DNA of 61,903 nt, taken from contig NZ_VJXQ01000001.1 of the NCBI RefSeq assembly GCF_007655485.1, positions 254,643 through 316,545 of the forward strand. The letters are read 5' to 3'. Under the pieces are notes generated by a model. The model had not been told where the DNA came from. It ran no database searches and saw only the letters and a list, made by a program, of their open reading frames with translations. Positions 34,352 through 38,089 of this stretch are shown in pieces. Each line of letters starts with the position of its first letter. Position 1 is the stretch's first letter. Position numbers and translations under genes: made by a program. The stretch is from Halobellus captivus (GTDB lineage Archaea; Halobacteriota; Halobacteria; Halobacteriales; Haloferacaceae).

Positions 34352-34807
34352 ATGAACTCGAAGCAAGCCGACGAGAACAGTCCACGGACAGATCACCTCG
34401 ACGAGGCGGCGCTCGATGCGCCCGTATCCACGGAGACCGCCGATTTCGTCACCTGCGAGAACTGCAAACGCGTCTGGTACTACGACAGAGCGGTCTGCCC
34501 GAACTGCCGCGGCCGTTCGTTCGAACGAACCCCTTCGGAGCAGGGAACTGTCGTGGCACGGACTACCGTCCACGTCACCCCCGACGGCGTTCCCCAACCC
34601 CTCGACCTCGGGCTCGTTTCGTAACGCGAGGGAGGTCACGTCCTCGGACAGCTGGCAGACGAGACCATCTCCCGCGGGCAGTCCGTCGTCCTCGCAGGAG
34701 CGCACGAACTGCGTCTCGAGGGCGACGGATCGGTCACGACGGGGCCGAAGATTCACGCGGTCGGCGGCGACGCCGACGCCGAGATCGACGTCGACGGATC
34801 GCGATAA
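34352..34807 (+). pseudogene. DUF35 (rubredoxin-like Zn ribbon plus OB fold) protein interrupted by an in-frame TAA
   Basis: First 90 residues form the Zn ribbon FVTCENCKRVWYYDRAVCPNC and the start of the OB fold (SFERTPSEQGTVVARTTVHV, PQPLDLGLVS). A TAA at 34622-34624 stops the frame, yet the same frame continues for 60 codons with clear OB-fold sequence (REGGHVLGQLADE, GQSVVLAGAHELRLEG) to a natural TAA at 34805. The stop thus looks like a single nonsense change, perhaps a Tyr codon TAC to TAA, or a sequencing error. DUF35 proteins bridge thiolase-type enzymes, and a thiolase gene starts 66 bases later. Confidence 0.8.
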
Positions 34808-36910: not shown

Positions 36911-38089
36911 ATGGAGCGGATTGTGCTTATCGACGGCGCGAGGACACCCCACGGAACGCTACTCGGCTCGCTATCGGACGTGGAGGGGATCGAACTCGGT
37001 CGCACTGCGATCGACGGTCTCCTCGATCGGACCGGCGTGTCCGGCGAGGAAATCGACTGGGTCGCACTCGGGAACGCGATCCAAGCCGGTATCGGGCAGG
37101 TCCCCGGACGCCAGGCGGTGGTCGAATCGGCGCTCCCGAACGACACGCCGACGACGACGGTCAACGAGGCCTCCGGATCGGGATTGCGCGCGATCACGCT
37201 CGCGGCCGACCGTCTCGCGTCGGGGCGTGCCGACGTCGCCATCGCCGGAGGGTTCGAGTCGATGACGAACGCGCCGTGGATCCTGCCCGACTATCGCAAG
37301 GGACGTCGACACGGCGACGTCACGATACGCGATTCGATGATTCTCGACTCTCTGTGGGACGTGAACCTCGACCGCCACATGGGCGAGATTGCGGAGCAAT
37401 TGGTCGACAGACACATCGACACCTACGACGTTTCCCGGGAGGCGCAGGATCGATACGCGCTCGGGAGCCACCAGCGAGCGGCCGCGGCCATCGAAGCGGG
37501 ACTCTTCGACGACGAGATCGTTCCCGTCGAAGCGCCGACCGGCACCGTCGACACCGACGAGGGCCCGCGGCCGGATTCGACGATGGACGACCTCGCCGCG
37601 CTGCCGACCGCGTTCCGCGAGGACGGGACCGTGACGGCGGCGAACGCCTCGAAACTCTCGGACGGCGCGGGCGTCGTACTGCTCGCCACCGAATCGGCCG
37701 CCGAGGAGTTAGGCGTCGAGCCGATGGCCGAACTGGTCGACTACCGGTACGTCTACCGCGATCCCGACGAGTTCAACGAGGCCGTCGGCGACGTCGTCGA
37801 GCGGACACTCGTCGAGAACGATCTCACTGTCGAAGACATCGGCACCTTCTGGGTCAACGAGGCCTTCTCCGCACAGGAGGTCTACGTGATGGAGCACCTG
37901 TCGATCCCCCGCGAGAAGATGAATCCCCGCGGCGGTGCCGTCGCATTCGGCCATCCGATAGGTGCGTCCGGCGGAATGATCATGGCGTCGCTGGCGTACG
38001 AACTCCACGACGAGGGCCTCGAGTACGGAATGTCGGGAATGAGTATCGGCGGCGGCGGGTCCGTGATGTCCCTGTGGAAGCGGTGCTGA
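36911..38089 (+). CDS. Thiolase-fold protein with both catalytic Cys replaced by Ser
   Basis: 392 residues aligned over its whole length with acetyl-CoA C-acyltransferases: IVLIDGARTPHG, NAIQAGIGQVPGRQAV, SKLSDGAGVVLLA, NEAFSAQEVYVMEHL and GGAVAFGHPIGASGG, so the NEAF loop and catalytic His are kept. The nucleophile block, normally NKVCGSGL, reads NEASGSGL (Ser88, codon TCC 37172-37174). The second catalytic Cys, normally LCIGGG, reads MSIGGG (Ser378, codon AGT 38042-38044). The fold is intact with no frame break, so it is not a simple pseudogene; reaction must differ from ordinary thiolysis. Confidence 0.85.
   Translation: MERIVLIDGARTPHGTLLGSLSDVEGIELGRTAIDGLLDRTGVSGEEIDWVALGNAIQAGIGQVPGRQAVVESALPNDTPTTTVNEASGSGLRAITLAADRLASGRADVAIAGGFESMTNAPWILPDYRKGRRHGDVTIRDSMILDSLWDVNLDRHMGEIAEQLVDRHIDTYDVSREAQDRYALGSHQRAAAAIEAGLFDDEIVPVEAPTGTVDTDEGPRPDSTMDDLAALPTAFREDGTVTAANASKLSDGAGVVLLATESAAEELGVEPMAELVDYRYVYRDPDEFNEAVGDVVERTLVENDLTVEDIGTFWVNEAFSAQEVYVMEHLSIPREKMNPRGGAVAFGHPIGASGGMIMASLAYELHDEGLEYGMSGMSIGGGGSVMSLWKRC

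Follow-up and report, generated by a model that had tools for sequence, protein, structure and literature searches.

Can a thiolase that lacks both of its catalytic cysteines still be an enzyme? The classical thiolase mechanism relies on two cysteines, and a gene at positions 36911 to 38089 (+ strand) of the window, the whole 61,903-nucleotide stretch of the Halobellus captivus genome analyzed here, encodes a thiolase that has neither. This gene, P0001, is an uninterrupted open reading frame that starts with ATG, specifies 392 amino acids, and has orthologues across many haloarchaea. Its product scores 369.8 bits against TIGR01930 (cutoff, 240.55) and matches both PF00108 and PF02803 above their cutoffs over the full length. 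It aligns to the solved C. acetobutylicum thiolase with E ~1e-88, and all of the PDB folds nearest to the AlphaFold model of P0001 (pLDDT 80; weak at residues 59 to 62, 120 to 155, 239 to 249, and 344 to 347) are thiolases.

Alignment to solved thiolases places Ser88 at the position of the nucleophilic Cys89, where the classical NKVCGSGL reads NEASGSGL (residues 85 to 92; 37163 to 37186, +), and Ser378 at the position of the acid/base Cys378 of the CxGGG motif, where TLCIGGG reads GMSIGGG (MSIGGGG, residues 377 to 383; 38039 to 38059, +). The Asn and His of classical thiolases are both retained, the oxyanion-hole Asn316 in NEAF (residues 316 to 319; 37856 to 37867, +) and the catalytic His348 in GHPIGASGG (residues 347 to 355; 37949 to 37975, +). 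The first-pass annotation of this DNA, made from the letters alone, had described these substitutions, their coordinates, and the two retained motifs correctly, and its observation that the serines are specified by two independent codon types is confirmed (TCC for Ser88 and AGT for Ser378). P0001 shares its fold, domains, length, Asn316 and His348 motifs, and about 40% identity with classical thiolases (C. acetobutylicum 4n45/4wyr, Ralstonia PhaA 4o9a, and that of Zoogloea ramigera), from which it differs in having Ser for both Cys, Glu86 for the Lys of NKVC, and four Gly after Ser378. In addition, the MGxGP loop of the Cys thiolases is replaced in the Ser/Ser clade, suggesting that its substrate may differ.

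The Ser/Ser pair is conserved among NEASGSGL-type homologues, as the first-pass annotation had asked. Ser88, Ser378, Asn316, and His348 are invariant in all 47 haloarchaeal members of the neighborhood set, in which NEASGSG, Met377-Ser378, and Gly380 to Gly383 are also unvarying and the pantetheine-loop NAS and the HMG motif are likewise retained. Every other haloarchaeal copy of the clade that was read (53 to 82% identity) has NEASGSG and MS[IVL]GGGG. When bacterial and archaeal genomes were scanned, six haloarchaeal relatives were recovered at 58 to 72% identity, all Ser/Ser, along with bacterial relatives at 46% identity or less that have Cys at both sites (poorly aligned distant paralogues aside); family and class searches added further haloarchaeal members at 53 to 76% identity. 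Elsewhere in the phylum, no Ser/Ser relative occurred among the 23 outside-class matches with loci read, all of which are Cys/Cys. A homologue with the normal cysteines at more than 90% identity, which had been named as grounds for abandoning the claim, was not found; the nearest homologue found, in Haloferax mediterranei (WP_004061064.1; pHME505, L248 12001 to 13179), is 81.6% identical and Ser/Ser. It adjoins an ArsA-family ATPase gene, not PHA genes, and is publicly annotated merely as a "thiolase family protein."

When 74 proteins were placed in a tree, a single branch with a support of 100 separated the 26 Ser sequences from the 48 Cys relatives; the stem of the Ser clade is 1.13 changes per column long and is placed among bacterial Cys thiolases. 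The median dN/dS over 88 pairs of clade members is 0.16, and that between P0001 and its H. mediterranei orthologue, which uses the same Ser codons, is 0.11 (dN, 0.12; dS, 1.06). Every member uses TCN for Ser88; for Ser378, L144 uses TCG and the other 46 of the 47 use AGY. No single base change joins the AGY and TCN sets, suggesting that serine itself is selected. In many haloarchaeal genera, the Ser/Ser state is fixed and subject to purifying selection. The idea that haloarchaeal thiolases avoid Cys in general was considered and rejected, since Cys/Cys classical thiolases (L002) and Cys SCP2-type thiolases are present in those same genomes.

Serine thiolases of another kind have been described in haloarchaea. 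A review of PHA synthesis in halophiles (PMC7137286) describes Ser-His-His in place of Cys-His-Cys in the alpha subunits of H. mediterranei PhaA and BktB, presents their OB-fold beta subunits as indispensable, and credits PHBV accumulation in this species to phaA and bktB. A 383-amino-acid thiolase on pHME505 that contains IDQTSSSGGA, HDMF, and GHPLGAS, and is followed by a zinc-ribbon/OB-fold gene, fits the published description of PhaA/BktB, and a protein with this signature is present in 8 of the 9 genomes examined for SCP2-type thiolases, including that of the window. P0001 resembles PhaA/BktB in having Ser for the nucleophilic Cys, a conserved His, a haloarchaeal host, and a putative involvement in PHA metabolism. 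In contrast, it carries PF02803 rather than Thiolase_C_1 (PF22691), is only about 21% identical to the PhaA-alpha-like protein, and has Ser378 where PhaA/BktB have His as the third catalytic residue. As for an OB-fold/zinc-ribbon partner, no match to the PhaA-beta-like protein or to the window's DUF35 protein was found in the 52 clade loci outside the window, in a search made weak by the shortness of the protein. These differences in subfamily, third residue, and partner point to separate origins, such that the Ser nucleophile of haloarchaeal thiolases appears to have arisen independently at least twice. The literature searched, where the PhaA/BktB work (Hou et al. 2013) was represented by a review, yielded no account of a classical thiolase with Ser/Ser. 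The clade is a real and conserved version of a known kind of enzyme, and one that is apparently undescribed.

The Ser/Ser thiolase occurs almost exclusively in genomes with PHA synthase. Among 391 haloarchaeal genomes, the Ser/Ser thiolase (presence threshold, E < 1e-90) occurs in 75 and class III PhaC in 222; 74 of the 75 thiolase carriers have PhaC, the sole exception being the window's own genome, where the same search found no class III PhaC. The odds ratio is 84 (P = 4e-20). The association is recovered both within family f1, where PhaC is present in 5 of 6 carriers versus 26 of about 135 genomes overall (P = 1e-3), and outside it, where the figures are 69 of 69 versus 196 of about 256 (P = 3e-10), group sizes being approximate in both comparisons. 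All of these P values exaggerate the strength of the association, as relatives do not count as independent observations. A control family, MmgE/PrpD, which is present in 190 of the 391 genomes, has a PhaC odds ratio of 1.05 and hence no association, which indicates that accessory genes do not generally follow this pattern. Within its genus, the window's genome is the only carrier of the Ser/Ser thiolase found among 17 genomes, and its copy groups in the tree with those of Natrialbaceae and Haladaptatus, which suggests either acquisition by horizontal transfer or repeated loss.

Two gene contexts recur. One is shared by five genomes from three genera, two of them belonging to Halegenticoccus species and the other three to the same family. 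There, phaC lies 1.5 to 7.5 kb from the Ser/Ser thiolase, and these loci (L010, L011, L182, L212, and L213) contain maoC as part of a phaB-phaC-phaE-phasin-like cluster; in these calls, PhaC exceeds a curated cutoff, PhaE was assigned by Pfam, and the phasin assignment is weak. In seven Natrialbaceae genomes, an MmgE/PrpD gene directly adjoins the thiolase, with gaps of 67 to 80 bases, and on a Natronorubrum aibiense plasmid (L250 3728 to 10583) acyl-CoA dehydrogenase, MaoC, CoA-transferase III, thiolase, and MmgE/PrpD genes form a cluster looking like an operon for CoA-ester degradation. Most copies do not adjoin PHA genes, and in most genomes the gene is on its own amid genus-specific neighbors; a conserved operon common to the clade was not found, the contexts differing between genera. 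The constant links to DUF35 and CoA-transferase genes that had been anticipated from the window did not hold: the window's DUF35 gene was detected in none of the 51 to 52 other clade loci (a weak test with so short a protein), and a family III CoA-transferase was detected in 4. In the window, the neighbors of P0001 include CoA-transferase III, FAH-family, aldehyde dehydrogenase, and transporter genes.

The strongest new evidence lies in the fixation of Ser/Ser throughout one clade and in the tie between that clade and PHA synthase, and the reading toward which we lean is that members of the clade are active short-chain beta-ketoacyl-CoA thiolases that operate through an acyl-serine intermediate and mostly serve PHA metabolism. 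We infer the catalytic activity, the acyl-serine intermediate, the substrate, and the direction of the reaction. Under this reading, a single transition along the long stem branch would have turned Cys-His-Cys into Ser-His-Ser in single-subunit classical thiolases, and the reaction would be the reversible Claisen condensation or thiolysis of short-chain beta-ketoacyl-CoAs. His348 would activate Ser88 for acylation by a CoA thioester, yielding acyl-Ser88 as an oxyester. The oxyanion holes would be built from backbone NH groups and from Asn316 together with water, and Ser378 would perform the alpha-proton transfer that is normally the job of Cys378. Most hosts would use the enzyme at the step between acetyl- or propionyl-CoA and beta-ketoacyl-CoA, in PHA synthesis or in the breakdown of mobilized monomers, beside PhaA/BktB. 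In the window's genome, the lack of PhaC together with the neighbors of P0001 would make a role among the surrounding acyl-CoA catabolic genes more likely. Because PHBV accumulation is credited to phaA and bktB, the Ser/Ser orthologue is not the main condensing enzyme in H. mediterranei; the enzyme may help to break down PHA, carry out condensations that involve other acyl groups, or catalyze a different acyl transfer.

That serine can act as a nucleophile in a thiolase fold is indicated by DpsC, a thiolase-fold protein with a Ser nucleophile (Ser-His-Asp) that self-acylates (PMC12664062); haloarchaeal PhaA/BktB (PMC7137286) are a further precedent in the superfamily. DpsC resembles P0001 in this use of Ser but is a FabH-type enzyme of bacterial polyketide pathways that transfers acyl groups to ACP. 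Its example, showing that Ser-based thiolase-fold enzymes can be acyltransferases (PMC12664062), raises the alternative that the clade catalyzes another reaction on the same fold instead of forming or breaking carbon-carbon bonds as a thiolase: hydrolysis of acyl-CoA, acyl transfer to some other acceptor (an ACP in the case of DpsC), or decarboxylation. The loss of the usual acid/base thiol, the replaced MGxGP loop, and Glu86 in place of Lys are in keeping with such a change, which we nevertheless consider unlikely: the remaining catalytic motifs (NEAF, GHPIGA, the pantetheine-loop NAS, and HMG) are all kept, and the Ser thiolases that haloarchaea have in the other subfamily do carry out condensation (PMC7137286).

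The absence of both thiols would also suit a conserved pseudo-enzyme, whose noncatalytic binding of CoA or acyl-CoA would serve to regulate or scaffold the PHA machinery or a different thiolase, and it is to other thiolases that PHA synthesis in H. mediterranei is attributed (PMC7137286). However, nothing would oblige a pseudo-enzyme to preserve His348 and Asn316 and to hold precisely to Ser at the two sites through so much divergence, or to keep Ser through a switch of codon sets at position 378, and this explanation is improbable as well. An acyl-serine mechanism is favored over a dead enzyme, given that Ser occupies exactly the two Cys positions while His348, Asn316, and the motifs that contact CoA persist. 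Decay, sequencing error, or a mutation specific to this strain has a negligible chance of explaining the substitutions; the adjacent DUF35 gene does have an in-frame stop, but the same residues occur in clade copies from dozens of genomes, with stop-free frames and dN/dS values of 0.11 to 0.16, and the orthologues and these ratios rule such explanations out. P0001 is not decaying. The earlier proposal of a Ser-based reaction rather than decay is thus upheld in its second half by a fixed Ser/Ser pair under purifying selection, and the putative Ser chemistry is consistent with the sequences.

We put at about even the chance that Ser-His-Ser is a third thiolase catalytic set, one that performs true Claisen chemistry through an acyl-serine oxyester in a single-subunit classical thiolase and evolved independently of the Ser-His-His of PhaA/BktB, with Cys replaced twice in haloarchaea. 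With the rest of its active site retained and an unrelated Ser thiolase alongside it in the same hosts, the Ser/Ser clade allows the feasibility of such chemistry to be tested directly. The 82% identical orthologue belongs to H. mediterranei, where deletions and assays of thiolase genes have already been carried out. For bioplastic production, the tie to PHA synthase is relevant as well.

The second Ser thiolase of the window, P0002 (34874 to 36181, +), belongs outside the Ser/Ser clade. It is an SCP2-type protein with PF22691, and its 41% identity to the PhaA-alpha-like thiolase of pHME505, along with the same gene arrangement, assigns it to the published PhaA/BktB type. The presence of two Ser thiolases within 3 kb had been taken to make coincidence unlikely; this argument fails, in that the two are of different types, one of them already described, a P0002-like thiolase occurs in just 1 of the 51 to 52 other loci, and the partner gene of P0002 is itself interrupted. 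The DUF35 (zinc ribbon/OB) partner gene of P0002 (34352 to 34807, +) has zf-ChsH2 in its first part and an in-frame TAA at 34622 to 34624, past which the translated frame resumes with typical DUF35 sequence. Given this stop and the published indispensability of the beta subunits, P0002 may be without a working partner. The two domains of P0002 are separated by a low-complexity insert in which (T)ATPDD units repeat. Another SCP2-type thiolase, encoded by an open reading frame at 523 to 1914 (− strand) of locus L235 in genome G354, has VEAADASG and HDSY, with Asp at the nucleophile position.
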